In this document: positions 1,439 to 63,908 of the stretch, one piece after another | How the letters are laid out: each line of letters opens with the position of its first letter | Numbering within the stretch: position 1 is the stretch's first letter | DNA from: Odiellus spinosus | Lineage: Eukaryota; Arthropoda; Arachnida; Opiliones; Phalangiidae | Assembly (NCBI GenBank): GCA_963920705.1 | Contig: OY987233.1 | Coordinates: 8,546,001 to 8,610,000 of the forward strand | Direction: 5' to 3' | Length of the DNA: 64,000 bases | Notes under the pieces: model-generated | The model's database searches: none | Seen by the model: only the letters and a program-made list of their open reading frames with translations | What the model was told of the DNA's origin: nothing | Made by a program: the position numbers and the translations under genes

Positions 1439-4400
1439 ATGTTCAAACATAGACGCACAACGTTAGAAAGAATTGATAAATTCATATCACCTCTCTACTT
1501 TAAAGATGTTAACTTATTTGGAAAGCTTTACCCTGAGTCAATGCCAATCGACGATTTGCAATACATAAATTGCGGGCTTGACAGACCACCTTTCTGTGAT
1601 GTAATAACGAAAAACACCCCATCAAAATACGGAGACTTTTCTAAAACATCCGTGGGACAACCTTTTGGACCTACTTGGTCAACGCATTGGTTTAAGGTAC
1701 GGCTGCTATTAAATCAAACTGCTAGTCAAGATATTTCGCTTGAAGGGAGCATTTAAACTAGTATCGATGAGGCACCTATGTCAAGGCGAAGGTACTGGTG
1801 ACGCTTATACAAGGACACAAAGTTGCCTCAAAGAAGTTTATGTTTTAGCCTATAAATGTTGAATTACAGATTTCAGTAACAATACCAAAAAAATGGTTTG
1901 GAAAAGAAGTTCATCTAAGATGGGATTCTGGTTGCGAAGCTCTTATTTGGTCTGAAGATGGTACACCATTACAAGGACTCTCGGGTTAGGAATCTTATTC
2001 ATTTTAAAGGAAGCCCAAAGTAGTTTAGGTTTATATTAAGGCGTCCTATTCGATGGATGTGATGATGCCCATTCATATAACAATACATGGGTCATTTGCC
2101 TTCAGTTTGGCAATTACTTTGGGATATTTTAATGAAGCTTTGCAGTTAGGAGAATGTTTTAAATGTTTGTTTTAATAGGTGGTGTTCATGAAAGAACCGA
2201 TTACATACTAGGAAAAGGAGATGAAGTACCAAATAATCAAGTCTATTATATCGAAATGGCTTGTAACAACGCTTTTGGTGCGGGAAAAGATAGTATGATA
2301 AGTCCGCCCGATGATAATAAATCATACACTCTCAAAATTGCGGAAATTGCTGTTTTTGATAGAAACGTAAGTTTTTAAGTATTGAATGATTACGAAAAGC
2401 TCAAGTAAGTAATGATTTCATTTTTGGTTGTTTAGCCCTAAATAGTGTAGATTGTAGAGCTTATTCGCAGCTATTTAGGTCTAACATTGTTCATTTTTCC
2501 TCTATTTATTTCTAAAATTTGGGCCTAAATAGCCTCTTTGTTAGTTTTGCTTCATTTTAGGTCTAAATAGTTACTTAGTTAATTTTTCATCTCAGGTTAA
2601 TTCTTTGTTACTGTCGTTGAAATGTTTGTACGACATTGCAAATGAGTTGCCGGAAACCAATCCTAGAAGTTTTGACGCTTTGTACTCTGGCAATGATATA
2701 ATCAACGCTATTCAGAATAAACCAGGGTATTTGTTATTACAATTTATCTAGTTTTTTAATTCCGTTTATTTCTTAACTAGTAATTATTATTTAGTGAAGA
2801 AGGTTTAAACGAAGCTCTCTCGTTAGCGAAGAGCTTTTTCTCTAAGAGAAATGGAGAAACTCAGCATCAAATTATAGCTGTTGGTCATTGTCATATTGAT
2901 TGTGCTTGGCTATGGACGTACGATGAAACGATAAGAAAATGCGCTCGTAGTTGGTCATCGACACTTCGACTGATGGAAAGCTATCCTGATTTTAATTTTG
3001 CTTGTTCTCAGGTAATTTGAATTTATAGTGATTTTTATATTAACAAAAATCAATCAGATTATGCGGCTTTAAGATTTAATAGTATGAGTACTGGTTTTGA
3101 AGACAATTACCGATTAATATATAACTGACTATTTACCGAATACTTAAACATTTACATTTAAATTAAACATTAAATCAAGGTTTAACATTTAGTAATTTGA
3201 GCACTATGCTCAATAATTACGAGTACTTGATTAAATTGAGTATTTGTTCAAACTTATTTCAATTGCCAGCAGCCAAACATTTACAGTACTAGGATAATCA
3301 ATCGTTAAAATTCATTAATTTGGCCATTGTACTTGATAATAACGAGTACTCTATTTCTTAAAATTGAATACTCATTCTGGTACGTTATATTTTTTACAAA
3401 ACCTTTCAGGCTCAGCAATTTCAGTGGGTTAAAGATAAATATCCAAAGTTGTACGCTGAAATTAAGGAGCAAGTAGGGAAAAATAGATTCATACCAGTTG
3501 GCGGAACTTGGGTTGAAATGGATGGAAATATACCAAGGTTTGTTATTCACGATAAATTGTAATTTAAAACAACTGGCGGCTCTAGAGTATCTCCTAAATG
3601 CCCGCTTTACTGCTGTACAATTAATTTACCTTACCAAAGGTAGAAATTTATAGGTGTATGCGGGTCCCATTGGCTCCTGCCTTTGACAATGCATATTTGG
3701 CGTGCATCAGGAAAGAGACTTGTGCAGGGGCTCCTCCAGAGCCTCCAGTTGCTTTAAGTTAAATTAATGTTTTTTATCCAAACCTAATTGAGCTGCTCCA
3801 TCTTTTCAGTGGTGAATCGTTTATTCGACAATTTCTTTACGGTCAAAAATTCTTTCTTGAAGAATTTGGCAAAATTTGTCAAGAATTTTGGCTTCCCGAT
3901 ACTTTTGGCTATTCCGCTCAACTGCCACAAATTATGAGGTACTGTAAATTTTAGAGACACGCAACCCCACTCGATTCCGGTCAAATAAAACACGAAACAA
4001 ACACTGAACATTTTTTTAGGTTATGTGGAATAGATCGTTTTCTAACTCAAAAAATCAGTTGGAGTCTCGTCAATAAGTTTCCGCATCACAATTTTTTTTG
4101 GGAAGGTATCGACGGTTCTTCCGTTATAGCTCATTTTCCACCCGGTGATTCTTACGAAATGAAAGTTGAAGTTAAAGAGGTACGCCCCCATTAAAATGTG
4201 TTATCAAGGAAACAATTTGAGGACTCGATCTCCGTCTTCATTATTTAAATTTTAACGCAGGCTTTGAAACAAGTATCGAATCTTCAAGATAAAGGAAGAG
4301 TTAATGAAAGTCTGATGTTATTTGGATACGGAGATGGAGGAGGTGGTCCCATTGAAGATATGATTTTGAGGCAGCAAATTTTGCAAGATGTTGACGGCAT

Positions 4401-7400
4401 TCCCAAGTAAATAACATAATAGACCGTGAAATCTTGTTATAACGAAAAATTGCTTATAACAAAATTTAATTGAATTCCCCATTGGCCAAATACATTAGTC
4501 CATATAACCCTTTATCGTCCGCTGTTTGGTCTGCAAAACCAAGGCCTAGGAACTATAAGGAAACATTTTTAGGCGTAGTTTTAGTAGACAAACTCGAGTT
4601 ATAAAAAAAAAGTTGCCTTTTTTGCTATAGCCAGTGACCTTGACCAAATACTTCGTCTTCTGTAAAGCCAAGGCCTAGGAACTATAGGAAACACATTGAG
4701 GCCTAGTTTTAGCGGACTAACTCTGCTTATCATGAAGAAGTTGAAGAAAAGTTTCCTATTTTGTTATAACCAGTGACCTTGACCAAATACATTTCCCATC
4801 CACTGTGTCGTCTGCAAAGCCAAGGCCTAGTAACTATAACAAATAGAATCTACCCCCACCCCCTTCTGAATTTTGTTATAACCAGGTTTTAACATAATCC
4901 TTTAAAAGCGAGACTAGGCTTTAAACAACCCTGCAAACCTTTGAAACAAATTCAAACCAGGATCAAAATGGGACGACCTGATGAAGTATTCGAACACTTA
5001 GAATCGAAAAAGGATAGGTTATGTACGTGGAAAGGCGAACTCTATTTGGAACTTCACAATGGAACGTACACTTCGCAAGCTGCGATGAAAGAACTCAATC
5101 GAAAGTGCGAATTTTTACTTCGAGATTTGGAATTACTCGTCGCTGTCATTCAAGCCGAATGTCCTTCCGAAGAATATCAAGAATTAAAGAGGGATATAAG
5201 CGTAATTTGGAAGAATGTCCTCTTGAACCAGTTTCACGACGTGTTGCCTGGATCTTCTATTGGATTGGTACACCAAGATGCCTCGAAACTTTACCAAACG
5301 TGCCTACGCCAGTTGGACGAGATGAAACTTAAGGTTTTGGAGTTTTTAGGTGAGAATACAATTTATATTAATATTACCACTAAATTCTTTGAGGAAAAAT
5401 CAGTATTCATAGTTGGCAGAACAAATAACATATAAATAATGAGTAATCAGTTGCAATAACGAGTACTCAACGTAAATAACTAGTACTTCATGTAAATGAG
5501 TACTCAATGAGACTGTAAATTACGAATACATATAATAAGTACTCAAACGAGTACTCGTTAAGAACCGAATAAGTAGTTGTAATTAACAGAATGAGTACTT
5601 GTAATTAACAGAATGAGTACTCGTAATGAACAGAATGAGTACTCGTAATGAACAGAATGAGTACTCGTAATGAACAGAATGAGTACTTGTAATGGGCAGA
5701 ATGAGTACTTGTAATGGGCAGAATGAGTACTTGTAATGGGCAGAATGAGTACTTGTAATGGGCAGAATGAGTACTTGTAATGGGCAGAATGAATACTTGT
5801 AATGGGCAGAATGAGTACTTGTAAATGGTAGAACCTAATGGACTGAAAAAGTACTAGTAATAAACCAAATGAATACGCATAACGAAACCAAAAATACCCA
5901 TAGTATGAGTATACTAACGAATACTTAAAGTAATGAGTACTCATAATGGGCAGAATCTAACCAACGAATATGCATAATGTGTCAATTAAGCGAGTACTCA
6001 AAATGCTTGTATATCTTCATGTAGGTCGAATGAGTTCTCTTAAAGCACTGAATAAGTATTCATTTTAAAATTATTTGCATTATTGGTGGACTTTGGGAGT
6101 TTATTTTGGACATGTTTTTTGAAATGCAGGAGAAATGGTCAGTGTCAAGGATAATAAGTCAATCAAGACTGTCGGTATTTTGAATACTCTACCTTGGACA
6201 AGACGCGCAATTGTTAGTCTTACAGTTTCTTCGCTAAATAGCGAACAGCAAAAATACTTATTGGGGAAGAAAATTCAGAAACCTGTTGTTAAAACTGCCG
6301 AAGAAATGTTGATTCCCGTTAAAATTCCCGCTATTGGATTATCATCATTGACCAGAGCCATTATTGATGATATTGACGCTGTAACTCTCGGTAAGTCAGA
6401 ATTTTCGTTATAGACAAGCAATTAACTTGCCCAATTCAGGACCTCATCAAATTGTGGTCGTGCCAAGGTGAAGCTCACGAATTTAATCTTTAGAAATTGA
6501 AAAAAATCCGTGGGACTCTTTTTAAGTACGCGTGACTTCAGTTTTACTATCTCAGTGTGCCCCTATAGAATAACGAAAGAGATAGACTTACCCAATGAGA
6601 AAAAAATCTATTTGGTCAAATTCTGTTTTAATTTTCCAATTTGAACCGTTTTTGTCCAAATTAGAAGATTTTTCCTCATTGGCAAAGAAGATTTCAATCG
6701 TTATTATGTTAAAACAGCCACGTGGATTTCTCAAATTTCTTATGATTAAATTCACGGGGCTTGGCGTGAGATCAGTTCAACAAGGCCGGAATCGAGTCAA
6801 GTCGCTTGTGTCCTTTAAAAAATTCTTAATTTATTGTTATTAAACAATTATCTTGTAGATGTAGTAGATAATGATAAAGAGTATACAATTAAAAATAAAT
6901 ACTTAAGCGCTACCATTGACCAGCGCGGGAAGCTGATCAGCTTGAAATGTCTAGAAAATGATAGGGAAGCTATCGCTTCAAAAAGTTACGCCAATAATTT
7001 AGTTATCTTCGATGACATACCCTTATACTGGGATGCTTGGGATGTTATGGATTACCATCTTGAAACTAGAAAAGACGCTGCAACTAAGGTAAGAGGCAAA
7101 CACAGTATTTTGAGATGGGTTGGATATTCACCATATTTGTGTACGTGACTTTAAAGTTTTCAAATAGATTTTAGGTTTTCTTTTAAGAAATTTGAAGGTT
7201 TGTAAAGAGATTTTAAGATTTTCAAAGAAATTTTTAGATTTTAAAAGAGATTTTCAGAGGTATTTGGGAGGAAGTATACAGGATTTTGGCCAATGTCTGA
7301 CCTTCATCAGTTTTTTGACCTTTGACGTAGCTCCTTTTTAATTTTCGCACATCAACCTTATAGGTATTTGATATGCATGCTAGTGAGAGTGGTCCATTGC

Positions 7401-9657
7401 GCGTTACGCTTCAATTTAAAGCCAAAATTGGGGAAAAGAGTAACTTGAAGCAGAGAATTTCCTTGGACGCGACAAGCAAATATCTACGATTTGATACCGA
7501 AGTGGACTGGCACGAAAGTCACAAATTTCTCAAGGTGAGTGTTACGGCGTATCTTTTTTGCTCATGCTACATTCTTTTAGCTTTAGCTTTAACTTTAAGC
7601 GTGTTTAATTTTTAGGTGGAATTCCCTGTTTCAGTACACAGTCAGAATGCGAGCTACGAGATACAGTTTGGACACTTGGAACGACCCACTCATTACAATA
7701 CCTCTTGGGATTGGGCTCGCTTTGAGGTAAACCAATTTAATAACGTCTCGTTATCATTTAAAACTGCTTAAAAATATCAGGGTTCTCACGCACATTTAAA
7801 ACCGGGAAAACCTGGAAATACCTGGGAAAAACTGATTTTTCAGGGAAAATCGTAATTATTTCCGGGAAATTGTGGAAATCAAAAGTTCATCATTTATTCC
7901 ATAAAAGTACTTGACATGAGGGAATATTGAGTGTAATCAGTGTACTTTTGACTGTTCTAAAGTGATTACACGTAATCTTTAAAATCCCTGCATTTGACAG
8001 TGCTAAAATGATTACGCTTAATCCGTAATCGGTGTACAGGGAATCCGAGAGTGATTAGCCCCTCGATATCAAGTTCAATAGTGCTAACTCAAAGTTCAAA
8101 ACCGACTGATTCGAGAGACTCTTGCGGCTCTATTTGATGTAAATAGTGAAATCGGAAGTGCCACTCTTTGGAGAAATTCAGGAGTTGGAGGGGGGGGGGG
8201 ACACAATATAGCCAAGTGCGGCACGTCTAAATTGCGTTCCTCCCTCCCTCCCTCAAAATATTTAATCCAAATCACTCGAGCCAGACAGAGGTGGTGACTT
8301 TTTTTGCTATTTTTAAGTGATGTTGCTTGCTGTTTGCCTTAGTCGCTACTGTACGTTAATTACTTTTATGGAATTTTGATGAAATTTTCGGGAAATTACT
8401 ATGATCAAAAACTTATGACACTAAAAACCATTGCAAACTCAAAAAGGGTTCATTTTTCAAATGTTGGTTTATGAATCATTTTAACTTTTTTTTAGCTAAA
8501 TTATTTAAACATGATGAAATGTTGTTCATTTAGCTATTTTATTCTTCTTTATTTTTGTCCTTGTAGGTCTGCGGCCATAAATGGATGGATTTATCAGAGT
8601 TTGGTTTCGGAGTTGCCCTCTTGAATACGAGTAAATATGGACATTCAGCCCGGGGAAATGTAATGTCGCTATCACTCCTTCGATCACCAAAAAGTCCAGA
8701 TGAAAATGCAGATATGGGCCATCATTCCTTTACTTACGCTATCATGCCTCATTGTGGAACATTGCAAGAAGCGGGCGTTATTCAACAAGCCTATGAACTG
8801 AACTCTAAGCCACTTACAATGGAGATTACTGGCGATGGTGTGTCTAAAAGTTGGTTCGAGGTATGTTATTATTTTAAATCTTTGGTGTTTGCAATAGTTG
8901 ATGGCCAAGAAAAGGTGCAGCGTCATAGTCCATCACTTAAAAATAGCAAAAAAAAGCGCCCATCCCTTTCTGGCTCGAGTGGTTTGGACTCTTCCTCAAT
9001 ATTTTGAGTCAGGAGAGAGCGACGGAATTTAGGCGGGTCGCGCTTGGCTATATTGTCTTCCCTCCCAACTCCGGAATTTCTCCAAAAAGTGGCGCTTCCG
9101 ATTTCACTATTTACACTAGAGTGTCTCGTATCAGAATCTGCCAGCACCTTTGACTTGTTTGCAGATAGTATTAAGCTACGGAGCGTTATTTACTTTTATG
9201 GAATAAGTGATAGACTTTTGCTACAACTAACGTGTTTTTGGTCACTGGGAGTTCCAACCAATTTGGTTTTAAGCGATTTGTTTTTTTTTTTTTTTTTTTT
9301 TTTTTTTGTTATAATGAGAAACCCCAATTAAAATTTAGTTTTTTAGCTCTAATTTGTGGTGAATTTTTTTAATTTCAGATCAGTAATCCGGCAGTAATTC
9401 TCGATACTGTCAAAGTGTCTGAGGACAATCCTCATCACTTAATTCTACGTTTTTACGAATCTTTTGGGGGCCAGTGCCAAACTACAGTAAAATCCTCTTT
9501 TCCATCAGACAAGGTGGAACTGTGCGATGCTTTGGAACGCATAGTGGATCAATTCCCCAAAGATATTGAGATTGTTAGCTTAAAACCCAATCTAGAATTC
9601 CGGCTCACTCTCCGTCCATTCCAAATTGTTACCATAAGATTACGCTTGAATCGTTAA
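1439..9657 (+). CDS. MAN2C1: Cytosolic alpha-mannosidase 2C1 (GH38), 16 exons, complete
   Basis: Exons: 1439-1696, 1870-1984, 2179-2366, 2596-2726, 2795-3011, 3410-3537, 3810-3938, 4020-4179, 4261-4406, 4961-5349, 6130-6390, 6859-7088, 7364-7534, 7616-7726, 8567-8860, 9379-9657. All junctions are GT-AG with matching phases. The spliced frame is 3,207 nt, 1,068 residues plus TAA; the human enzyme is about 1,040. The family removes mannose from free N-glycan oligosaccharides in the cytosol after glycoprotein degradation. Seen: [10 protein letters not shown] near the N-terminus; GHCHID (H264 and D266, expected metal ligands) in exon 5; WLPDTFGYS with D376, the expected nucleophile, in exon 7; NQFHDV (H583, expected metal ligand) in exon 10; [17 protein letters not shown] in exon 12. 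There is no signal peptide, as expected for a cytosolic enzyme. The ATG at 1439 is chosen because an in-frame TAA sits 9 bp upstream and the N-terminus aligns with the family. Introns 9, 10, 14 and 15 carry repeats. I see no disabling change. Confidence 0.97.
4480..4850. repeat. Three diverged tandem copies of a ~130-140 bp unit in MAN2C1 intron 9
   Basis: The phrases GACCTTGACCAAATAC and CAAGGCCTAG recur about every 130-150 bp near 4500-4560, 4630-4680 and 4770-4830. Between them are AACTATA.GGAAACA and CTAGTTTTAG-like blocks. The copies are clearly diverged. No coding potential is visible. Confidence 0.6.
5574..5840. repeat. Minisatellite, 22-bp unit, in MAN2C1 intron 10
   Basis: About a dozen tandem copies of GAATGAGTACTTGTAATGGG plus CA. 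The left copies carry the variant CTCGTAATGAACA and the middle ones CTTGTAATGGGCA, so variants are ordered along the array. Degenerate GAGTACTC motifs extend from about 5440 to 6000. A 128-residue open frame on the minus strand here is an artefact of the periodicity. Confidence 0.85.
8100..8330. mobile_element. Family A MITE, diverged fragment in MAN2C1 intron 14
   Basis: Shares with the other A copies the blocks GATTCGAGAGACTC, TGTAAATAGTGAA, GGAGAAATTC, ACAATATAGCCAAG and CTCGAGCCAGACAG. A G-run of about 10 sits near 8192-8201. Both terminal repeats are lost. A short fragment just upstream (7779-7880) carries CAGGGTTCTCAC and repeated CCTGG/GGGAAAA motifs resembling another family. Confidence 0.65.
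8922..9220. mobile_element. Family A MITE in MAN2C1 intron 15
   Basis: Carries the family blocks CTGGCTCGAGTGGTTTGGAC, GGCTATATTGTCTTCC and GAATTTCTCC, and the right terminal repeat from GCAGATAGTATTAAGCTACG to GATAGACTTTTG. The left terminal repeat is missing. It runs in the same orientation as the copy at 20598 and opposite to those at 18839, 43019 and 44426. Confidence 0.75.
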
Positions 9658-15044: not shown

Positions 15045-18000
15045 TTAATAATAATCGCCAGCGAAATTCTTATAAAACGGTCGACCATAGGAATGATCAT
15101 AGGGTAGTAGTATATTTGGCCACCAGACGTAGCTTTGTAGAGACGATGCTGGTACAGTATTTTCTACGTACATGTTGTTTTCCTGGCGTATATTAATATT
15201 AACCGGGGCGGTATTGCTGCGAATAAGAGCGTAATTTGTGTCATTATGTTTTTGTTAATACATCCGATTAGTTAAAAGTTTACCGGTTTAAAATATGTAC
15301 AACTATGCCATTATCAGGTCTTTGAAAGGCAACCACTTCTAGGTCAGTTTCTGTAGAGGAGTTTAATACGCTCTCAATGTGAACAGAATTTCTGGGGAGT
15401 AATTTACTACAAAAAGAGAATTAAGTTAATCAGATTAAATTACTAATCTCATTTCAAGTCGATTTTGGGGTTTGTATAGTAAATGCGACAATTGGCAAAG
15501 CAGTGCAACTTAATTTAGATATCTAGGCAACTTCAAAACGTAACTTGGGCAACTTCAAAACGTAACTTGGGCAACTTCAAAACGTAACTTGGGCAACTTC
15601 AAAACGTAACTTGGGCAACTTCAAAACGTAACTTGGGCAACTTCAAAACGTAACTTGGGCAACTTCAAAACGTAACTTGGGCAACTTGGGCAACTTCAAA
15701 ACGTAACTTGGGCAACTTCAAAACGTAACTTGGGCAACTTCAAAACGTAACTTGGGCAACTTCAAAACGTAACTTGGGCAACTTCAAAACGTAACTTGGG
15801 CAACTTCAAAACGTAACTTGGGCAACTTCAAAACGTAACTTGGGCAACTTCAAAACGTAACTTGGGCAACTAAAGACCTATATTTCTCTTGGGTAATTTC
15901 TAAAGACTTATATTTCTCTTGGGTAATTTCTAAAGACGTATATTTCTCTTGGGTAATTTCTAAAGACGTATATTTCTCTTGGGTAATTTCTAAAGACGTA
16001 TATTTCTCTTGGGTAATTTCTAAAGACGTATATTTCTCTTGGGTAATTTCTAAAGACGTATATTTCTCTCGGGTAATTTCTAAAGACGTATTTTCTCTCG
16101 GGTAATTTCTAAAGACGTATATTTCTCTCGGGTAATTTCTAAAGACGTATATTTCTCTCGGGTAATTTCTAAAGACGTATATTTCTCTCGGATAATTTCT
16201 AAAGACGTATATTTCTCTCGGGTAATTTCTAAAGACGTATATATCTCTCGGATAATTTCTAAAGACGTATATATCTCTCGGGTAATTTCTAAAGACGTAT
16301 ATATCTCTCGGGTAACTTCTAAAGACGTATATTTCTCTCGGGTAACTTCTAAAGACGTATATATATCTCTCGGGTAACGTCTAAAGACGTATATATATAT
16401 CTCTCGGGTAACGTCTAAAGACGTGTGTATATATATATATATATATATCTCGGGTAACTTCTAAAGACATATATCTTTCTAAGTTAGGTTAGGTTAGGTT
16501 AAAGACTTATATTTCTCTTGGGTATCTTTAAGACACCTCTTTAAACAAATAACTTTGATGCTAACCTGAAATGCGCTAATACATAATACATTGGTTGTTT
16601 GTAATACTCGTTGGCTGTTGTGTTTATGATTATCGGTGAATCGACAAAGTTGCTAACTATATTAGGCCCGCCTTCTTCATCGAGAGCCAAGTTCCAATCG
16701 ACCCAACCACTAGTAGAATGTTGTAGATCCTAAGCAAAGGAATTCCAGATTAAAAATTTCTTATCTCGTGGCTTTAAAATGATCGTATTATAATGGGTAC
16801 TTCAATGATATCATGGGCGTACAGGGCTCCTCTGTCCCAGCTTCCTAATATAACTGGATTGCCGGTTCTTGGTCCATTACAAGCTTCCGTTGACATGATG
16901 AACTTTTTAGGGTGATCCTTTTTGAGGTCGTCTAATACTTTCGGATCTGATTCGTTGTTTAAATACCAATGAAACGCGATTCCAGCCGAGTACTTGTCTC
17001 CCAATGCGCTGTCAAGCGTCTACGTGATTGGGAGAAATAATTAAATAAAATACCACAGCTGTAATGTCGTATTGAATAATGTAGAAACTAATTTGAAGTT
17101 TCATGAACTCCAAATGGAAATTGAGTAAAAATTCATATTTTATAATCGCCATTTCCGAAATTCCCCGGAATACTACGTCATCACTATGTTTGCGTAATTT
17201 CGCTATTGTATTGAGTCTGCAGTTGATTCTCATTCCGTTCTGGCACTAGTTATAAGATCGCTTTCACGCGGTCTTTTTCGCAAAAGTACTTAATCCAGAA
17301 AATCTTACTTTTGGTATGGAATTTATCGTTAATTACGTTCCAGTACTTATACAAAAAAGAACGCGCGAAAGCTACCTTATCTCTGGTGCCAGAAAGCGCG
17401 AGAATTAACTGTAAGCTCTATACAATAGGAAAATAACACGACCATAGTGATGACGTAGTATTGCGGGAAATTTTTATTTTAAAAATTTCGAAAATGGCGA
17501 TTATAAAATATGTATTTTTACTGTCGCTGTAATTTGTTTCTATGACATATGTATATATATTTTGAATCGTTTTTAAACGATCTTTCCGAAAATGCTACTC
17601 ATTTTACATTTGGAGTTCAAGAAAAATTCGTTACAGCCTCCCTTTAGAAAAAAACTGCGAAAAAAAAAACTTGTTCCAGCCGTTAGTCTTTAGTGTAACT
17701 ATTGGTACATTACCGGTTCAACGTAATCTGGGAGATACGGTCTTTGGTCATCGTGAAGCATTATTTTAATATATTCAGGGCCGTAATAGTTGCGTTCAAG
17801 AATAGGCCCTAAGAATTGGTTCAAGAATATTTTCGAAGTCTCGTTTGTGAAACCCAATGTTTGAAATGGAAAATCTTCAATAAATCCGTCTGCGGGTTGA
17901 TTATCCATTGTCAGACCCCAGAATTGTAATCCTTCTTTCTGATAATGTCTTAAAAACCTTTAGAAATGAGAATGTTAGTTATATTTTTCATTGGTTCTTT

Positions 18001-21000
18001 ATAGATTAAAGGGATACTATTAGCCGAAATGAAGTATATTGTTTCTGATTCCTTTTGTAAAAATATGCTCCCCTGAATTGTTTCATAACTTTTGTAGTAC
18101 AAATACTATAACAATTTTTTTTTTTTAATTTTTATATCCTAAACATGCATTTGAATTTCTCTAACACTGTCAACGAGCCAATCAGAACCTTGGTTTAAAT
18201 CTTAAATTGAAACCAAGATCTCTACATTATCAGTTAGATGTGGCCTTGGCTTCTACGATCTTACTTCGATAGAACCTCGTGTAATTGGCCCATGGCTCTG
18301 ATTGGTTCTTTCGCAACAGTGAAAAAATCAAATACATAGCTAAGCCTAAGTTTTAAATAATTAATTTTAACTGAAATATCTTGTTATCAAAAATGTGAAA
18401 AAATTCAGTAGGATATATTTAATTACAAGTAACAAGAGAAAAAATTAAAATGGAAATAATATTTTCACCTAATAACTTCCCTTTAACATGACGATCGGTC
18501 TATAACATTAGACGCTAACGCGTCTACTGAATACGCTTAAAGAGGTGTAATATGTTTTACGCCTACTTGACGAAGTAATTCGCGAATGTAGTGTAGTATT
18601 GGTCTCCTGGCTTCAATGTGCCAGCGCCAGTCTCGTTATTGTTGGTTTTCATCCAGTAAGGTGGTGCCCAGGGTGTCGCGAATAGATATAGACTGTCGTA
18701 ATTACAATACGAGTTCGCCTTTTTGATATACGGTATCTGTGAAAAATCATACAATGGGAATAGCCAAGCTTTGGTACTGATGCTTGAAATTCTACTGTTG
18801 ACGTTTTGTTTGAAATTTTGTTTTACAATTATAACTTAATAGCTTAATACTATCAGCAAAGGTCCCTGTAAATGTACCAGCAAATTCTGATTCGAGACAC
18901 CCTAGCGGCCGCAGTCGCCGTGTAAATAGTGAACGGAGGAAGCGACACTCTGCGGAGAAATTCCGAAGTTACGAGGGAAGACAATATAGGCAAGCGTGGC
19001 CCGCCTAAATTCCGTCCCTGTCTCCCGACTCTAAATATCGTGGAAGAGTCCAAACCACTCGAACCAGACAGGGGTGATGACTTTTTTCGCTATTTTTAAT
19101 TGATGGGCTATGACTTAAAACTGGACCTTTGCTGATAGTAGTAAGCTACGTGGCGTTGTTTACTTTTATGGAATAAAGTGATAGACGTTTCACGGGATTT
19201 GTTAAAAGTGTCTTGGATATACAAACCTTGAATTTATAGTCTTCCATGGCTAGTTTGAAATTTTTCAATTCAAAGTCATATGGAGTGTCGTCGTAAGAGT
19301 AAAAACGTGTGGAGAAATCCGTGCTTGCCATGGGAACTCTGCCCATATTATATTGGGAACCTTGAAAATGTTTCGAATGTGTTAAAGTGCAGGTGTCGTA
19401 TGAGTTAAAGGTGACACTTAATGGCCCTATCTGCTCAGAAATTGGCCCTTTTAAATTCTCTTCCCTTATGAACACAGCCTAGATTTGAATGTACCATTAA
19501 TTAGGGTCAACGTCGTCTGCTAAGTTAGAAAAGAAGCGACTTTAAAGGGGCTTTAAAACGCATTTAGTCCCTTGAAAGGGTGAATGCTTCCTAACAACAA
19601 GTGTTTTTTTTATCGATTCCTTAAATAGGCCTAATCCACAAGTAACAAAAAATTACATACAAATATTAAACTAGAAATAAATTTAAAACTTACCCGGACA
19701 AATAGGCTTAGCTGGATTCATGGAGACCCAGAATTTCTTCGCATTAATGGGTCAGCGACCAATGAGCAAATGCTCGTCGTTAAGGCGAGATCTCGATGAG
19801 ACTTACAATAACATTCGATCGGTCACTGTCCTATGAATGCGAAGTAATTCAGGATCTCCATGAATCCAGCTAAGCCTTTTTTCCGGGTAAGTTTTAAATT
19901 TATTTCTAGTTTTTCTAAAATATTTGTTTGCTAACTTTTTTAGGCGTATTTAACCGATTAGGAAACGATACAAAAAAATCACTTGTTAGGATGCATTCTC
20001 CCTTTAAGAGCATATGGTTAATAGAATACGCTTGTGCAACAAAATCTTTTAAACGTGGGGATAGAACTGATATGGCGCGGAACATCGGTCCGTGACATTT
20101 AGGGACCGCCTTTTTGGTGCCAGGGCACTTAGGCCCAATGCCTTTTGGGAGCTGGATCATTTACGAGCCGTGAGAATTTGGTGCCAATTGTAAATATTTG
20201 TGATCTGAAAATGACTTAAAACATTCTAAAAGTAGCAAGCAATTTCCTTGCACTCTAGAGCAGTATAACAAAAGCCCCCCCCCCCCCCAAAATCAAAACC
20301 GTAGAAAATGTCTTCTAGGTGGTCAACCATGTGTTCCATGGCAATACATATCATAAAGTTTTAGCTTTAATTACCATCTGCAGCGTAATAATTTCTTATG
20401 AGCGTGTCTTGAAGTGATGGTGATAATTTAGCGATGTTTAGTCCGGCACTATCCGTGAAGGCTCCTCCGAAACCGATAATGTTTTGGTAACGATGAGACG
20501 TATTGATCTCTATCGTCACTGCATCTTTAGTAATTACGCAACGTAACATCAATTAGTTACCCAATCAGTAAAACGCTGTTTTTAATATACGTAATGACAA
20601 AAGTCTATCACTTTATTCAATTAAAGTAACCAGCGCCCCGTAGCTTACTACTATCAGCAAAGGCCAGCAGTTTTACGTGATAGCGCATCACTTAAATCTA
20701 GCCCAAAAAGTCATCACCCCTGTCTGGCTCGAGTGATTTGGACTCTTCCTGGATATTTTGAGTCGCTCCGCGCTTGGCTATATTGTCTTCCCTCCCAACT
20801 CCGGAATGTCTCCAAAGAGTGGCGCTGTCGTTACATTTACCCGGACCTTTGCTGATAGTATTAAGCTACGGAGCGTTGTTTACTTTATTGAATAAAGTGA
20901 TAGACTTTTGGTAATGATTTAAACTTACCAGTGTTTGATTTTAAATCGGCATAACGTTTGGCCCTGGTAGAACTCCTTGAAAATCGACCGGAACTTTTAC

Positions 21001-24000
21001 CGGTTTGGTAGATCAAAACCGACCCGTCTATGGCGTCCAACGGTCCAACTTTTGGTAAAGTGTCACAATACGTCGAGTTGCAAACGCAGACGAAACTGTC
21101 TGATTTGTATGTGCGTGGGGCGCATGGTTGACTCGTGACTGGAAATTTAAAATCATACTTTACAATGTTTATTTTTCTTTAAAACACATTTCCCTTTCGT
21201 GCCAAAATATCTACGGTCACACTAGCATTTCTTAATCGATTTGAGACGGTAAAATCAAACCGATATTCAAATCGCCAGGAATCGTTCCGGAATGGTTCCG
21301 GAGCAGTTTCAAGAAATATAATTGATTCGAGAAATCACCGTTTCCCGTTCACACGACTCTAGCGAAACGTTTTGAAACGGTTTAAATCGATTCAAATTTA
21401 ATGTGTGAGCAGTCTTTGTGTCGGAATAGTCCTGGTCGATTTGCCGGAAATGGGCCCTTGTCTCATAGCCGCGCCGCCATCTTTTTGTAGTAACAGGTTG
21501 CCAGACTATTCCTAATTTTATTTCCCACAAACCAAATTCAAGTTGTTAGTCCAACGCTTCCTATATGATAAAGTATAGGAGGCGTTGGTTAGTCTGTAGC
21601 TATTTTCACACTACAAAAAGATGGCGGACGATCACGTGACAAAACGTTTTCCCCGCCAAAATTTTCGCGAGGTTCTCTAGACTTCCGGTTTTGGAAATCG
21701 ACCAGGACTATTGTGGGTTGTCGAAGGTGAAAAGCAGCTTGGATTAACTTGTAGTTCAATGGCGACCGTAGAAAAAGAGTGTATTTAGTAATGTTGGGTA
21801 AAAAATAAGCTTCCATTTTGAAGGCAAAAATCCCCCTAACGATTTTGATGAAATTTTGCACAGAGCATCTATATTCAAAGGCCTAGTATGAACGCGGCTT
21901 TAACCTCTTTCCAAAAAGTGTACGAAGATGTCCTACCCTAACTTTTTAGTTCTCCTTTTAGGAAACATATTCGTATCAGGAAAACTTGTTAGACATAAAA
22001 CTAAATCTTCTCATATATAACAATAAGCAATCGAAACAGCTGGCGATTCCGGATAATTTCAACTTTATTAATTTATTGTTTAGGCGTCCACTATAAGTAC
22101 TTTTGTCTGTTGCAAATTTGCAATAACGGTTTTTTGCACAGTCGTAGATAAACATATTTCGATTAATTCTTTTTCACAGAACATACTATTCGAGGCTTAA
22201 AGGGTCGAATGCAACCTAACAACAAAATAATTTTTTATCGATTCCTTTTCGTTTAAATAGAGATAATCCGCCAATAAAAAGTATACAAATCAAATATTAA
22301 ACTAGGAATAAATTTAAAACAGGAGGAAAATAGGCTTAGCTGGATTCATGGCGACCCTGAATTTATTCGCATTGATGGGTCACCGACCAATGAGGCGAGA
22401 TCTCAATGCGAAGAAATTCAGGCTCTTCTTGAATCCAGCTAAGCTTATTTTAATCTGATTTGTAATTTAATATTTGTGTACAATGTTTTTACGGGTGGAT
22501 TTATTTAAACGATAAAGAAACGATAAAAACATCACTGGGTCATTCCACACGGGTTCGAACACTCATGTTACCATGGGTCGGGCGATTTTAATGAAATTTT
22601 ACATACGTTAATTTCCGGCTATTTGATGGTCAAATCCCAGTTTTTAGCCCAAAATATTGATTAGAAAAAAAAAACTACAGGCTTTTGAAAATACCCCCCG
22701 TTTTTAGATGTACGCCATGACGATATTCGTACCCCTAAACATTATGGCGAATAACTTTTCCCCAGTTTGATCAAATCTCCTAATATTTTCAATTTTAAGG
22801 TAATATGTAGCATAGATTTCATTAGTGCTAACGAAATGTTTCTATCTTTAATAGTGTTCTCGCAAATAGGGGTCCTTTCCAAAATTTTGAAGAAGGGGGG
22901 GGGGGTCAACTTCGAAGCGCAGCTCTGAAAAAGGCGCAACTTCAATTTTTAATTTTTTGCCAGTTATAGATAGCCCTATACCTAGGCTTTAATTTCATAT
23001 CCAATTTGTTTGTGATATTTGGGTGCTAAAGGCTGAAAAACGTGAAAAATCAATTTTGAAGAAAAACGCATTTTTTTGGAATTAAATTATTTTTTATTTG
23101 GCCATAAATAATGCTCGCGCATTATCTAGGCATAGTTTGGGCATTTTAAATTTGTAACTCCCCTGTCTGAATGATATTGTAGCGGCACATTATTTAAAGG
23201 GGCAGGTAAAATGCATAAAATGGAATTTACAGGTACAAAACTTTTATCATTTTGAGATTCCGAAGAAACTATCGCGTTACCTTTGTTGCATTTCATTAAT
23301 CTGAGAAAGAAGTGATTTTCTTCTCCATTGGCTTCTTACACTAAGGCACCTACCAATCCTTGTCATATTTGGCCGCTAGATAGTCCCCAACAGAAACAGC
23401 GTCAAATATTAGTGAATTCGGGAGATATCAGTATTCTCAATTATTGCCACCATAACATTTGTACTGTATATATCACGTGAAACTCTCTACATTTTTAATT
23501 CACAATGAGATGTGGGGATAAATTTATGGTGGCTTCGAGCGTCAGTAACAGTGCAAGCCGTGGAAAGACGTTCTTGAAGGAATAGTTGGAGTTCAACATC
23601 CTCTTGAGTAAAACTTAATTTCAAGAAAGTTTTTTTTGACTACCCGTAGAATTGTAAATACGTTAATATTTGGTCCTTTTCGGTGTTTTGCAAGGACGCC
23701 CGGGATACCGAACGCTTCGCTACTTCGCATGGTAAAAGTCCATGTGACGGTACTGGGGGAACAGCCAAGCGTTTGGTATACCGGGTGTACTTGCAAAATA
23801 CCAAAGCGGATCAAATATTAACAACTAAAAGTAACAATTCTACGAATGGTCAGAAAAAAACTATTTTGGAATTAAGTTTTTCTACATTTCGAAAGAGGAT
23901 GTTAAACTCCATCAACTATTCCTTCAAGAACGTCTTTCCACGGCTTGCGCTGTTACTGACGCTCGAAGCCACCATAAATTTATCCCCACATCACACTGTG

Positions 24001-25285
24001 AATTAAAAATGTAGAGAGTTTCACGTGATATATACAGTACAAATGTTATGGTGGCAATAATTGAGAATACTGATATCGCCCGAATGCAATAATATTTGAC
24101 GCTGTTGCTGTTGGGGACTATCTAGCGGCCAAATATGACAAGGATTGGTAGGTGGCCTTAGTGTAAGAAGCCAATGGAGAAGAAAATCACTTCCTTCTCA
24201 GATTAATGAAATGCAACAAAGGTAACGCGATAGTTTCTTCGGAATCTCAAAATGATAAAACTTTTGTATATACCTGTAAATTCCATTTTTATGCATTTTA
24301 CCTGCCCCTTTCAATAATGTGCCGCTACAATATCATTCAGACAGGGGAGTTACAAATTTAAAATGCCCAAACTATGCCTAGATAATGCGCGAGCATTATT
24401 TATGGCCAAATAAAAAATAATTTAATTCCAAAAAAATGCGTTTTTCTTCAAAATTGAGTTTTCACGTTTTTCAAAATTCCTTCTCGAGGTGTGATTTTTA
24501 TGAACATGCCGTCTTATTTTTGTTCGTTCTCGGTTTCCATGAATTAATTCTTGATATAACTTATTCAGTTTTATGAGAACATGAGCTTATGCCTGGAGAA
24601 AATGTTACATTTGACGAAATGTTACCACGCGAGATAGCGGTTCCCTTATCTATTATTCGTGTTTGACATTTAATTAATTTTCTACGTAATCTCTCCGCTG
24701 TTTTTGATTGGCAGGGATTGGAGTTAGCCGAGTAAGGTTGGATCGAATGGCAAACGAAGCTATATCTAGGAAAACGTCCGAACTTGCGGATATATAGATC
24801 AAAGGGAGAATGCATCCCGACCAGTTTTTTTTATCGATTTATTATTGTTAGATAGGCCTAATCTACAATCAGGGTTACCACAGGTCAGGGAAAAAGTCAG
24901 GGAAAAGTCCCGGAATTTTAAAATATTTTAAAAAGTCATGGAAAAGTCACGGAATTTTAAAATATTTTAAAAAGTCATGGAAAAGTCAGGGAATTTAAAG
25001 ATCTTTCAAGAAGCGAGGAAATTAAAATTAGTCTGCAGAAAAGATTTGAAGCTGACCGTGTCAGTTGTATAGATTAGAACAAAGATACGCGTGAAAAAAG
25101 TTTGGCGAACGCGATTATATAAAAATTAAAGGTGAATAATTGGGTAGTATTAGCTGAAACGGTTAGGGAAAAGTGCGGAAAAGGTGAGGGAAGAACCTGG
25201 AAAAGTCAGGGAATTTGAATCTAAAAAAACTGTGGCAACCCTGACAATTAAAAAAAAAACTACGAACAGAAATTGAGCTAGAAAT

Positions 25286-25323
<38 letters not shown>

Positions 25324-26637
25324 TTGGAAGTAATACCGTTTTAGAAATTAAGCTAAGGCTATCACCATTTGCTTTCGAATTCATATGGATTATATTTTTA
25401 GTTTTAACATTCTATTAAAACGCCTTATTCAAAATTTTATACTTCTGAGTTCACGCGTTAGAAAGAAACTTCAAAATTAAAATGTAAAAAATAAATATAG
25501 GTAATTTTTTTCCTGATATATGACGTAGTTTATTTCTGGAACTTAATTAATGATAATATTCATATGAAAGGTAGTTGACTTGATCTGGATTAAGTACTTT
25601 TACGAAAAACACCGCGCGAAAGCGACCTTATCACTGGTGCTAGAACGCGACGAGAATCAACTGTAGGCTCTATACAATATCGAAATCACGCGACCATAGT
25701 GATGACGTAGTATTGCTTGGAGTTTTTACTTTAAAATTTTCGAAAATGGCGATTATAAAATACGTATTTTTACTGTCTCTGTAATTTTGGTTCTATGACA
25801 TATGTATATATATTTTGAATCGTTTTTAACGATCTTTACGAAAATGATACTCAATTTCCATTTGGAGTTCATGATAAATCCATGACAGCCTCACATTAGG
25901 GCAAGAAGGATCAGACAAGGAGAGGAAAAGTAGGGCTGCGTTGAGTTAGAGAGAGAAGAGCCAACCTCCCACTCGGGTGGAAAGGGGGATAGGAAATTCT
26001 CGAGGTAAACTGTTGTCACGTGGTCACTAGCGTCGTTGGCTACTATGAAGTTGATAAAGGATCCGTTTTACCCACGTGACAACATTTTACCACGAAACAT
26101 CTCTACCCCCGTTCTCCCAGAGTGGGAGTTTAGGCCGACGCAGTAGGAACTGCGCCGTCCCCACTTTTCCTCTCCTTGTCTGATCCTTCTTGATTAGGGG
26201 TACCAATTACATTAAGTAAATTAAATATATTTGTAGATTTTCGTATTTTTTAAAATTGTATATATCCTTTAATTAAAAAAAATTAATTGGATTGATAAAT
26301 AATATTTTTTTAAGCAAACGGATAATCGTACAACTTTTCTTTTTACACGAATTTCGAGTAAACGTAATTTGTTTATTAATCGAACTTAAAATTTCATCTC
26401 CGGATAATTCGTATCCATTTGATACGCGTCTGTTTATATAATTTGTGGTTTTATATTAACAAACAATTTATCCGAGATTAAAATATGTGAAAAAAGCCTA
26501 GTTATCAATGGATATCCGATTCCATGATCTAAATCTATCCAATTATAATAAAAGTTATACTTTATTTATTCATTACCTTTAAATCCCGACATCGCCAGAA
26601 TCATAATTGCTCCAATTAATGTTCCATTTTTCGTCAT
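15045..26637 (-). CDS. GBA1: Lysosomal glucosylceramidase (GH30), 10 exons, complete, with NEP to NQP at the acid/base site
   Basis: Minus-strand exons in order: 26637-26577, 21138-20929, 20518-20375, 19360-19227, 18736-18567, 17957-17714, 17019-16801, 16729-16566, 15406-15284, 15216-15045 (stop at 15047-15045). Splices are GT-AG with matching phases, giving 1,641 nt and 546 residues; human GBA1 is 536. The family hydrolyses glucosylceramide to glucose and ceramide in the lysosome. Seen: a 20-residue hydrophobic signal exon ([17 protein letters not shown]); the cysteine block PCAP...[11 protein letters not shown] at 25-46; GFGGAFTD at 106-113; [11 protein letters not shown] at 203-213; SWDRG and [16 protein letters not shown] further on; C-terminal SYVWWP. 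The nucleophile is kept in STEACNG (E366, codon 16887-16885). At the acid/base position the expected NEP reads NQP (Q260, codon 17899-17897). Intron 1 is 5.4 kb and packed with repeats; intron 8 holds two minisatellites. Exon 3 has an alternative in-phase acceptor 6 bp upstream that would add two residues. The paralogue identity is not certain because arthropods can carry several such genes. Confidence 0.95.
15526..15870. repeat. Minisatellite, 22-bp unit, in GBA intron 8
   Basis: About 15 nearly identical tandem copies of AACTTGGGCAACTTCAAAAC plus GT. One unit contains an internal duplication of AACTTGGGC. The array abuts the next minisatellite with no spacer. Confidence 0.95.
15871..16478. 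repeat. Minisatellite, 30-bp unit with TA expansions, in GBA intron 8
   Basis: About 20 copies of TAAAGACGTATATTTCTCTT plus GGGTAATTTC. Variants are ordered: CTCTTGGG on the left, CTCTCGGG on the right, then TATATATCTCTC units with a growing TA tract between about 16360 and 16450. The last unit runs into TTAGG repeats. Confidence 0.95.
16481..16501. repeat. Short interstitial TTAGG tract
   Basis: AAGTTAGGTTAGGTTAGGTT contains three TTAGG units, the insect-type telomere repeat, at the edge of the 30-bp minisatellite. Similar short tracts occur at 36322-36334 and 36669-36685. Confidence 0.7.
17085..17340. repeat. Family K dispersed repeat, reverse copy in GBA intron 6
   Basis: Reads GAACTCCAAATGGAAATTGA, ATACTACGTCATCACTATG, GTTCTGGCAC and GGTCTTTTTCGCAAAAGTAC, the inverse of the adjacent copy at 17341. 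The two form a head-to-head pair. Confidence 0.75.
17341..17645. repeat. Family K dispersed repeat, forward copy in GBA intron 6
   Basis: Carries the family order GCGCGAAAGC, CTGGTGCCAGAA, CGACCATAGTGATGACGTAG, AAAATGGCGATTATAAAATA, GACATATGTATATATATTTT and CATTTGGAGTTC. A similar block order is present at 25384, 51955 and, reversed, 27775 and 54985. Confidence 0.8.
17958..18566. other. GBA intron 5
   Basis: AT-rich intron without a recognised transposon. Two short related blocks (CAATCAGAACC..GGTTT near 18178 and CTCTGATTGGTTCTTTCGC near 18296) are in inverted orientation, so a small foldback may be present. Confidence 0.35.
18839..19190. mobile_element. Family A MITE in GBA intron 4
   Basis: Carries inner terminal sequences AGCTTAATACTATCAGCAAA and TTGCTGATAGTAGTAAGCTA, with the right outer end GAATAAAGTGATAGACG. 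The left outer end is missing. Shared interior: GATTCGAGACAC, CGGCCGCAGTCGCCGTGTAA, CTCGAACCAGACAGGGGTGA. Confidence 0.85.
19576..20003. mobile_element. Family B MITE in GBA intron 3 (copy B2)
   Basis: Right TTAA at 20004-20007; the left counterpart has changed to TTGA at 19572-19575. It has the long nested arms GCTTAGCTGGATTCATGGAG and CTCCATGAATCCAGCTAAG. It belongs to the TTCTTCGCATTGA-type subfamily rather than the CGCCTCCGTGTAAG type of B1. Confidence 0.85.
20598..20910. mobile_element. Family A MITE with 7-bp target duplication in GBA intron 2
   Basis: 313 bp, both ends intact: CAAAAGTCTATCACTTTATT at the left and its inverse at the right. Flanked by GTAATGA at 20591-20597 and 20911-20917. 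The right edge sits 18 bp inside the intron from the exon 2 splice donor of GBA, yet the donor itself (minus strand 20928-20927) is intact. Confidence 0.92.
21211..21897. mobile_element. Element O1 in GBA intron 1, CTACGGTCACACTAGC end
   Basis: Begins CTACGGTCACACTAGCATTT and ends CCTAGTATGAACGCGGC, a weak inverse. It shares TTAATCGATTTGA, AAACCGATATTCAAATC and ACGGTTTAAATCGATTC with 55865-56150. Inside is a further inverted pair, CGCCATCTTTTTGTAGT near 21474 and ACTACAAAAAGATGGCG near 21610. Confidence 0.6.
22201..22540. mobile_element. Family B MITE, right end lost (copy B3, GBA intron 1)
   Basis: TTAA at 22197-22200, then AGGGTCGAATGCAACCTAAC. Inner arms GCTTAGCTGGATTCATGGCG and GAATCCAGCTAAGC are close together because most of the core is deleted. 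It runs through AACGATAAAAACATCACT and then ends. Confidence 0.8.
23034..24473. repeat. 1.44-kb imperfect palindrome (foldback) in GBA intron 1
   Basis: The left arm from TGAAAAACGTGAAAAATC is mirrored by the right arm ending TTTTCACGTTTTTCA. The match is followed inward through ATGCTCGCGCATTATCTAGG, AATGATATTGTAGCGGCACA, AAACTATCGCGTTACCTTTG, GAGCGTCAGTAACAG and GTTAATATTTGGTCC. Arms are about 700 bp each with scattered substitutions. The loop is about 40 bp near 23727-23766. Open frames of 61-107 codons inside are not recognisable proteins. Confidence 0.9.
24801..24864. mobile_element. Family B MITE, left-end fragment (copy B4)
   Basis: AAAGGGAGAATGCATCCCGA, TTTTTTTATCGATTTATT and AGGCCTAATCTACAAT match the family B left end. 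It is broken by the N element at 24870. Confidence 0.65.
24870..25243. mobile_element. Family N element with 5-bp target duplication (copy N1)
   Basis: Ends CAGGGTTACCACAGGTCAGG and the near-inverse CTGTGGCAACCCTG. Flanked by ACAAT at 24865-24869 and 25244-25248. The interior repeats AAAAGTCAGGGAA-like words and shares AAGTTTGGCGAACGCGATTA with N2 at 48474. It has inserted in a B fragment. Confidence 0.82.
25384..25894. repeat. Family K dispersed repeat, long copy (GBA intron 1)
   Basis: Runs from GGATTATATTTTTAGTTTTA through AACGCGTTAGAAAGAAAC-like, ATATGACGTAGTTTATTTCT and GAAAGCGACCTTATCACTGG to TTGGAGTTCATGATAAATCC. The same blocks occur in the same order at 51955. No terminal inverted repeat seen. 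Confidence 0.75.
25902..26192. mobile_element. Family Q MITE with 7-bp target duplication (GBA intron 1)
   Basis: 291 bp, ends CAAGAAGGATCAGACAAGGA and the perfect inverse, extending about 30 bp. Flanked by ATTAGGG at 25895-25901 and 26193-26199. The inner arms also pair (CACGTGGTCACTAG and CCCACGTGACAAC), so the whole unit can fold. It adjoins the end of a K copy. Confidence 0.9.
26290..26535. repeat. Family H-prime repeat fragment
   Basis: CACGAATTTCGAG, TTTATTAATCGAACTTAAAA, CTCCGGATAATTCGTAT, TTATCCGAGATTAAAATATG and CAATGGATATCC are shared with 51150-51543 and partly with 59157-59581. It lies directly before the GBA signal-peptide exon on the minus strand. Confidence 0.6.
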
Positions 26638-41559: not shown

Positions 41560-42375
41560 ATATGAATATAATTTGGTGGCTATTTTGCCAATATGAATAT
41601 AGTTTGATGGCTAATTTTCCAATATGAATATAATTTGATCTCTATTTTGCCAATGTGAATATAGTTTGATGGCTATTTTGCCAATATGAATATAATTTGA
41701 TGGCTATTTTGCCAATATGAATATAATTTGATGGCTATTTTGCCAATATGAATATAATTTGATGGCTATTTTGCCCATATGAATATAAGTTGATGGCTAT
41801 TTTGCCACTATGAATATAATTGGATGGCTATTTTTCCAATATGACTATAGTTTGATGGCTATTTTGCCAATATGAATATAATTTGATGGCTATTTTGACA
41901 ATATTAATATACTTTGATGGCTATTTTGCCAATATGAATATAGTTTGATGGCTAATTTGCTAATATGAATATAATTTGATGGCTATTTTGCCAATATGAA
42001 TATAATTTGATGGCTATTTTGCCAATATGAATATAATTTTATGGCTATTTTGCCAATATGAATATAATTTGATGGCTATTTTGCCAATATGAATATAATT
42101 TGATGGCTATTTTGCCAATATGAATATAATTTGATGGCTATTTTGCCAATATGAATATAATTTGATGGCTATTTTGCCAATATGAATATAATTGGATGGC
42201 TATTTTGCCAATGTGAATATAATTTGATGGCTATTTTACCAATATGAATATAATTTGATCTCTATTTTGCTAATATGGATATAATTTGATGGCTATTTTG
42301 CTAATATGAATATAATTTGATGGCTATTTTGCCAGTATGAATATAGTTTGATGGCTATTTTGCCATTTATTAATC
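41560..42375. repeat. Minisatellite, 31-bp unit
   Basis: About 26 copies of GATGGCTATTTTGCCAATAT plus GAATATAATTT. Point variants are scattered through the array; the first copies carry GGTGGCTATTTT or GATCTCTATTTT. Confidence 0.94.
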
Positions 42376-57749: not shown

Positions 57750-58300
57750 TCAACTAATGTGACGAACAAAGAGATGTTTATCCAACTTATATGATTGGAC
57801 AATTAAATGTCCCTCCAACTTATGATTGGACAATGAAATATCCCCCCAACTTATGATTGGACAATGAAATATCCCCCCAACTTATGATTGGACAATGAAA
57901 TATCCCTCCAACTTATGATTGGACAATGAAATATCCCTCCAACTTATGATTGGACAATGAAATATCCCTCCAACTTATGATTGGACAATGAAATATCCCT
58001 CCAACTTATGATTGGACAATGAAATATCCCTCCAACTTATGATTGGACAATGAAATATCCCTCCAACTTATGATTGGACAAAGAAATATCCCTCCAACTT
58101 ATGATTGGACAATGAAATATCCCTCCAACTTATGATTGGACAATGAAATATCCCTCCAACTTATGATTGGACAATGAAATGTCCCTCCTACTTATATATG
58201 ATTGGAGAAGAAAATGTCCATCCAACTTATATATGATTGGACAATGAAATGTCCAACTTATATATAATTGGACAAAGAAATGTCCATCCAACTCCAAACC
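57750..58300. repeat. Minisatellite, 31-bp unit
   Basis: About 16 copies of CAACTTATGATTGGACAATG plus AAATATCCCTC. Units at both ends (before about 57830 and after about 58190) carry TATATGATTGG and GTCC variants, while the centre is homogeneous. Confidence 0.94.
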
Positions 58301-62284: not shown

Positions 62285-63450
62285 GACTTTCAAAACTAGA
62301 CCCCATTTGGCTTTCAAAACTAGCCCCCCCATTTGGCTTTTAAAACTAGCCCCCCCATTTGGCTTTCAAAACTAGCCCCCCCCCATTTGGCTTTCAAAAC
62401 TAGCCCCCAATTTGGCTTTCAAAACTACCCCCCCCCCCATTTGGCTTAGAAAACTAACCACCATTTGGCTTAGAAAACTAGCCTCATTTGGCTTTGAAAA
62501 CTAGCCTCATTTGGCTTTGAAAACTAGCCTCATTTGGCTTTGAAAACTAGGCTCATTTGGCTTTGAAAACTAGGCTCATTTGGCTTTCCGAACTAGCCCC
62601 ATTTGGCTTTCCGAACTAGCCCCATTTGGCTTTCCGAACTAGCCCCATTTGGCTTTCCGAACTAGCCCCATTTGGCTTTCCGAACTAGCCCCATTTGGCT
62701 TTCCGAACTAGCCCCATTTGGCTTTCCGAACTAGCCCCATTTGGCTCTCCGAACTAGCCCCATTTGGCTTTCCGAACTAGCCCCATTTGGCTCTCCGAAC
62801 TAGCCCCATTTGGCTTTCCGAACTAGCCCCATTTGGCTTTCCGAACTAGCCCCATTTGGCTTTCCGAACTAGCCCCATTTGGCTTTCCGAACTAGCCCCA
62901 TTTGGCTTTCCGAACTAGCCCCATTTGGCTTTCCGAACTAGCCCCATTTGGCTTTCCGAACTAGCCCCATTTGGCTTTCCGAACTAGCCCCATTTGGCTT
63001 TCCGAACTAGCCCCATTTGGCTTTCCGAACTAGCCCCATTTGGCTTTCCGAACTAGCCCCATTTGGCTTTCCGAACTAGCCCCATTTGGCTTTCCGAACT
63101 AGCCCCATTTGGCTTTCCGAACTAGCCCCATTTGGCTTTCCGAACTAGCCCCATTTGGCTTTCCGAACTAGCCCCATTTGGCTTTCCGAACTAGCCCCAT
63201 TTGGCTTTCCGAACTAGCCCCATTTGGCTTTCCGAACTAGCCCCATTTGGCTTTCCGAACTAGCCCCATTTGGCTTTCCGAACTAGCCCCATTTGGGTTT
63301 CCGAACTAGCCCCATTTGGGTTTCCGAACTAGCCCCATTTGGGTTTCCGAACTAGCCCCATTTGGCTTTCCGAACTAGCCCCATTTGGCTTTCCGAACTA
63401 GCCCCATTTGGCTTTCTGAACTAGCCCCATTTGGCTTTCTGAACTACCCC
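62285..63450. repeat. Large minisatellite, 23-bp unit
   Basis: About 50 copies of CCCCATTTGGCTTTCCGAAC plus TAG. The left edge carries TTTCAAAACTAG, TTAGAAAACTA and TTTGAAAACTAG variants with C-runs; the centre is almost homogeneous; a few GGGTTTCC units sit near 63290-63350; the last two copies have TTTCTGAAC. The largest tandem array in the window. Confidence 0.96.
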
Positions 63451-63908
63451 CGTAGTCTTCAGAACTATCAATTGCGTATAGGCTAAGCCGAAATTTTCAA
63501 GAGCCGAGACGCTTGATTCGTGTTTGAAGAATCTTTGAAGGCCATTCCCTTTGGGAATTAGAAGACTCAAGGCCTAATCTCTTCACATTTGTCCACCTTT
63601 ACTTTTGCAGCGCGTACTGTAGGAATTGTTTACTTACATTAGAGATGTAGAGAGCCTCATTTTACGTATGCTGACTACTTATACTATTTAAATATTGCGT
63701 AATATATTCAAGGTGTATGGGAGCCCTCAAACGAACTACACATTCATATATCATACTATACCGCGGATAGATAACTTAAGATACTACTCACATTGATGCA
63801 AGGAAATATTTTCAAATATTTTTCTATTGTTTCGTTTGAAAGTATACCTGAAAAATACGTTAAAAAAAATTTTTAGAACTACATGATCATGTTTGAAGTG
63901 ACTATTGT

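Follow-up and report, generated by a model that had tools for sequence, protein, structure and literature searches.

The window, the 64-kb stretch of DNA analysed here, contains a ten-exon gene for what is, by its sequence, a GBA1-type GH30 protein, in which glutamine takes the place of the catalytic acid/base glutamate. On the minus strand, positions 17902–17900 read AAT (N) and positions 17899–17897 read CAA (Q), confirming the sequence-only reading, which had placed Gln where the acid/base Glu of GH30 enzymes is expected. With a probability of about one half, we consider the gene to encode a full-length GBA paralogue that would retain binding of beta-glucosides and hydrolyse glucosylceramide very poorly. 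Provided that the base is real and fixed, the gene encodes an intact GBA1-type protein altered at exactly one catalytic residue. It would then be a natural counterpart of laboratory acid/base mutants and a test case for hydrolysis-independent functions of glucosylceramidases, a question already posed by fly Gba1a. If the base is an error, the gene is ordinary.

Gene structure and family identity

The gene extends over 26637–15045 of the minus strand, with the ends of its ten exons placed by eye (Table 1). Each of the nine introns begins with GT and ends with AG, the phases are compatible across the junctions, and the spliced product is a 548-aa protein with a terminal TAA. Exon 1, 5.4 kb upstream, is assigned from sequence features only. 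No stop, frameshift or lost splice site is found across the ten exons. The earlier description of an intact ten-exon frame, here 548 aa free of stops and frameshifts, is therefore correct, and the gene shows none of these three marks of a pseudogene.

Table 1 Exons of the GBA1-type gene and the codon at the acid/base position.
Feature	Position	Strand	Content
Exon 1	26577..26637	-	Likely signal peptide; ATG start, GT donor, phase fits exon 2
Exon 2	20929..21138	-	N-terminal region; four Cys aligned to human C4, C16, C18 and C23
Exon 3	20375..20524	-	GFGGAFTD block, start of GH30 barrel; PF02055
Exon 4	19227..19360	-	Block aligned to human R120, D127 and F128; PF02055
Exon 5	18567..18736	-	ATPW block, aligned to human W179; PF02055
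Exon 6	17714..17957	-	NQP motif; PF02055
Codon CAA	17897..17899	-	Q262, where human GBA1 has acid/base E235
Exon 7	16801..17019	-	FHWYL and STEACNG, nucleophile E368 (human E340); PF02055
Exon 8	16566..16729	-	GWVDWNLAL and NFVDSPII blocks; PF02055
Exon 9	15284..15406	-	Start of C-terminal beta-sandwich domain; PF17189
Exon 10	15045..15216	-	C-terminus and stop codon; PF17189 seen over the spliced protein

The GH30 TIM barrel and the C-terminal beta-sandwich are both present. In a Pfam search with the spliced protein, PF02055 matches over its entire length (E 4e-121, model positions 1–348 of 348), as does PF17189 (E 1e-12, positions 1–65 of 65); exon 2 scanned alone gives no Pfam match. GH30 models are the only ones to match at E up to 0.01, and the protein thus does not belong to GH1. 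Matches to NCBIfam fall far below the cut-offs. Using phmmer, 14 distinct PDB sequences match at E up to 1e-5, and the match to human GBA1 spans residues 5–524 (E 1.3e-125).

Relatives were also sought outside the window. Scans of viral contigs find no GBA relative, and a scan of contigs from prokaryote genomes finds two among 32 candidate stretches: L001, from a Francisellaceae bacterium (3004–4608), and L002, from a Gammaproteobacteria MAG (2902–4581). Both records are gammaproteobacterial and encode GBA1-like GH30 proteins about 39–40% identical to the window protein (38% in the best tblastn segment), and both proteins have the GH30 barrel, as the window protein does; in L002 the model for the C-terminal domain matches below its cut-off. 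Two transposase-like genes (Pfam DDE_3 and DUF772/DDE_Tnp_1) flank the L001 gene, and lateral transfer is possible.

Two introns carry conspicuous repeats. Intron 8 contains two adjoining minisatellites with units of 22 bp and 30 bp (15526–16424), which make up 899 of its 1159 bases, and a short TTAGG-like run lies beside them near 16480–16500. Intron 1 contains a foldback element (23034–24473) whose three pairs of arms, 114–242 nt in length, are 97–99% complementary, which suggests a recent insertion. Elsewhere in the window, parts of a GH38 alpha-mannosidase gene lie on the plus strand at 4893–9007, with PF09261 in 4893–5435 and PF07748 in 8567–9007. These domains were found in two of the eight ORFs scanned, and in the PDB the first piece matches an Ams1 fusion best (E 6e-28). 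A 23-bp satellite of ~44 copies with 98% matches occupies 62435–63451, within an array that begins at 62277, and 31-bp arrays lie at 41560–42365 and 57781–58293. Rfam and tRNA searches of the window give no matches.

Glutamine at the acid/base position

In the phmmer alignment and in two MAFFT alignments, three comparisons that are not mutually independent, Q262 falls opposite E235 of mature human GBA1. E235 is the acid/base of the human enzyme (PMC7141376, PMC7271948, in the passages of each that deal with it). The Glu of the N-E-P motif is thus absent from the window protein: its motif reads M-D-N-Q-P, compared with A-E-N-E-P in human GBA1, A-Q-N-E-M in L001 and V-Q-N-E-P in L002. Glu fills this column in all three homologues, a small sample of one human and two bacterial proteins, and both bacterial proteins (QNEM and QNEP) differ from the window protein in keeping it. 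Residues 260 and 366 of the sequence-only reading are Q262 and E368 in our model; the residues themselves stand and their numbers are shifted by two, presumably through a slightly different start or junction.

Several ways in which a glutamate might still serve this site were considered. A different Glu filling the acid/base position in the sequence was rejected, since the column of Q262 holds Gln in all three alignments. Two residues before it stands Asp in the window protein, as against Glu in human GBA1 and Gln in L001 and L002. An alignment that places another glutamate at the acid/base position, named beforehand as one result that would overturn the reading, was looked for and none was found: the column and the two preceding it are free of Glu in the window protein. 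A search of the window by tblastn, with the spliced protein as query, gave no alternative or duplicated exon 6 bearing NEP. RNA editing that restores Glu was also set aside, since A-to-I editing of CAA can yield neither GAA nor GAG. At the DNA level, CAA and GAA differ by one base (G/C), so a base error is possible.

Conservation of the remaining active site

The nucleophile is kept, as had been read from the sequence: E368 lies within STEACNG and aligns with human E340. Hydrogen bonds to the glycone in human GBA1 are described for W179, D127, N234, E340, W381 and N396 (PMC7271948, from the passage on these contacts). All six are retained in the window protein, that is, E340 and each of the five others (D127, W179, N234, W381 and N396). 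Of the eight active-site residues in a table published for the fly GBA1 proteins (PMC8000066, Table 1), seven are kept and E235 is the exception. The claim that the other active-site blocks are preserved is thus upheld: among the catalytic and glucose-contact residues checked, the acid/base alone is altered.

Conservation extends well beyond the active site. At the columns where human GBA1, L001 and L002 are identical, the window protein keeps 118 of 136 (87%), and when each homologue in turn is omitted, the corresponding figures are 118/148 (80%) for human, 118/145 (81%) for L001 and 118/140 (84%) for L002. Where L001 and L002 agree (n = 215), the window protein agrees with them at 148 columns and human GBA1 at 136. 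On these alignments, the window protein is at least as conservative as the three homologues. E235 is the only one of the 18 lost columns that is listed in the cited papers as a catalytic or glucose-contact residue. In exon 8, W381, N396 and F397 are kept and human W393 is replaced by Ile (I420); W393 adjoins a loop given as 394–399 in a passage of PMC3226326. Further differences from human GBA1 in the cap loops are S237A, Y244F, D315N and S345P, at positions that vary in the bacterial homologues too. The four N-terminal Cys and the N19-type sequon (NST, in exon 2, aligned to human N19) are retained, and sequons are absent at the positions aligned to human N59, N146 and N270.

When neutral drift was simulated with indels left out, a median of 15 substitutions (5–95% range 2 to 63) had accumulated by the first stop. 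We infer that constraint on the gene lasted until recently or continues today. AlphaFold2 models were poor, with a mean pLDDT of 33.8 from the single sequence and 40.9 from three sequences. In the three-sequence model, strands 254–261 and 363–367 stop just before Q262 and E368, a low-confidence feature that we give no weight. Because the models are of low confidence, the active site is judged from the alignments.

A proposed crippled, binding-type paralogue and its alternatives

Retaining glycosidases use the acid/base Glu twice, first to protonate the leaving group and afterwards to activate water. Gln is isosteric with Glu and has its shape, but can carry out neither step. Since the nucleophile and the glucose contacts are intact, binding of beta-glucosides should persist, and the loss of the acid/base from an otherwise intact site favours a crippled paralogue of the binding type. 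As the likeliest reading, the protein would be a paralogue of the housekeeping glucosylceramidase. In the mechanism that we propose, the gene would be expressed and its product would fold and enter the secretory pathway, where it is predicted to bind beta-glucosides, glucosylceramide included. A glucosyl-enzyme may still form from activated substrates, but with neither protonation of ceramide nor activation of water, turnover of glucosylceramide would be very slow. The protein would then act in binding, scaffolding or sequestering instead of as a hydrolase, and hydrolysis would fall to a separate GBA gene at a different place in the genome.

The intact 548-aa frame, the end-to-end Pfam matches, the match to human GBA1, the retained conserved columns and active-site residues and the neutral-drift simulation all argue for this reading, as do two precedents. 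Fly GBA1a shows none of the glycosidase activities tested in the reported assays (PMC8000066, in part), and changing the acid/base to Ala or Gln in other retaining glycosidases causes a drastic loss of hydrolysis (PMC10974290, in the portion on engineered mutants). Against it, tblastn with the spliced protein (E up to 10) finds no second GBA gene in the 64-kb window; besides the ten exons there is one extra match (E 4.4), taken as chance. The nucleophile is kept, although a pseudoenzyme of long standing might be expected to have lost it too, CAA is just one base away from GAA, and the fly precedent is imperfect, as GBA1a has both catalytic Glu and reports of its activity exist (PMC8000066, same part). 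Among the literature matches listed, seen as titles, beginnings of abstracts and passages, none reports a natural GH30 glucosylceramidase with Gln as its acid/base. The earlier proposal of a pseudoenzyme or lectin-like protein thus fits the sequence, but is not singled out by it, as the retained contacts and nucleophile fit crippled or altered catalysis equally well.

It is less probable, though far from negligible, that the Gln codon is a base-call error or a rare or private allele, and that the gene of the species encodes NEP and an ordinary glucosylceramidase. A single G/C difference would suffice, the remainder of the gene is enzyme-like (118 of 136 columns, with no other catalytic or reported glucose-contact change), and the window is without a second GBA copy. 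The coding sequence, however, has no frameshift or stop, so that base quality is not obviously poor, even if one substitution could still have slipped in. A weak further objection is that Gln would account for about 1 in 9 of the single-base non-synonymous changes of GAA, with transitions twice as likely. Decay at an early stage would instead make the gene a redundant copy that lost constraint recently, with the acid/base change among the first hits. We think this improbable. One catalytic residue gone and the rest intact is what such a stage could look like, and the insertion suggested by the intron 1 foldback would be recent and nearby, which says little about the gene itself. Stops, frameshifts and broken splice sites are all absent, however, and conserved columns are retained as well as in the homologues, so that constraint, if lost, was lost within the time of ~15 neutral coding substitutions (median).

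Altered rather than impaired catalysis is a further alternative, and an unlikely one. By analogy with plant myrosinase and its use of ascorbate, the protein would still form a glucosyl-enzyme where the leaving group is a good one, as in thioglucosides and aryl glucosides, and the glucose would then be transferred to a base or acceptor supplied from outside. The nucleophile and the reported glucose contacts are retained. Classical plant myrosinases pair a nucleophile Glu with Gln and ascorbate (PMC8836197, in the passage on their mechanism), engineered Glu-to-Gln acid/base mutants serve as thioglycoligases (PMC10974290, in part), and the moth Zygaena has multiplied its GH30 genes, with ZfGBA1 active on cyanogenic glucosides (PMC5493921, in part). 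Yet the flea-beetle myrosinase belongs to GH1 according to the source passage, a GH30 thioglucosidase is unreported among the matches listed in the literature search, and a recent change would leave the pocket intact as well. That the protein is specifically a natural GH30 thioglucosidase or glucosyl-transferring enzyme with the change of acid/base Glu to Gln known from plant myrosinase is very unlikely.

Comparison with known systems

Human GBA1 (PDB 9fa3, 1ogs and others) is 42–44% identical to the window protein. The two have in common the domains, the nucleophile, the six glycone contacts, the four N-terminal Cys and the N19-type sequon, and differ in that the window protein has Q262 for E235 and Ile for W393.

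Drosophila Gba1a (CG31148), a GBA1 paralogue and the nearest precedent, resembles the window protein in being of the GBA1 type and in the expected lack of glucosylceramidase activity, which for the window protein is a prediction from its sequence. In the sections of PMC8000066 that describe it, no tested glycosidase activity was detected for GBA1a, contrary reports of activity are cited, and an alpha-mannosidase probe labelled a band of 61 kDa that the authors judged not to be an alpha-mannosidase; regression of the larval midgut is delayed in the mutant. The published residue table shows the difference: in the fly protein both catalytic Glu are present and the entry for F397 is blank, whereas the window protein keeps F397 and has lost the acid/base Glu.

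In Zygaena, transcriptomes contain about six GH30 sequences, and the glucocerebrosidases have an average dN/dS of 0.18 (PMC5493921, in part). By its description, ZfGBA1 is likewise a GH30 protein of the glucocerebrosidase kind, from an insect with several such genes, but it is an active hydrolase.

Classical plant myrosinase is likewise a barrel-fold retaining beta-glucosidase with a nucleophile Glu, and it has Gln where its GH1 relatives carry the acid/base. The window protein has the same pair in Q262 and E368 and belongs to GH30 rather than GH1. Should its chemistry persist in an altered form, a second family of glycosidases would offer a parallel to plant myrosinase.
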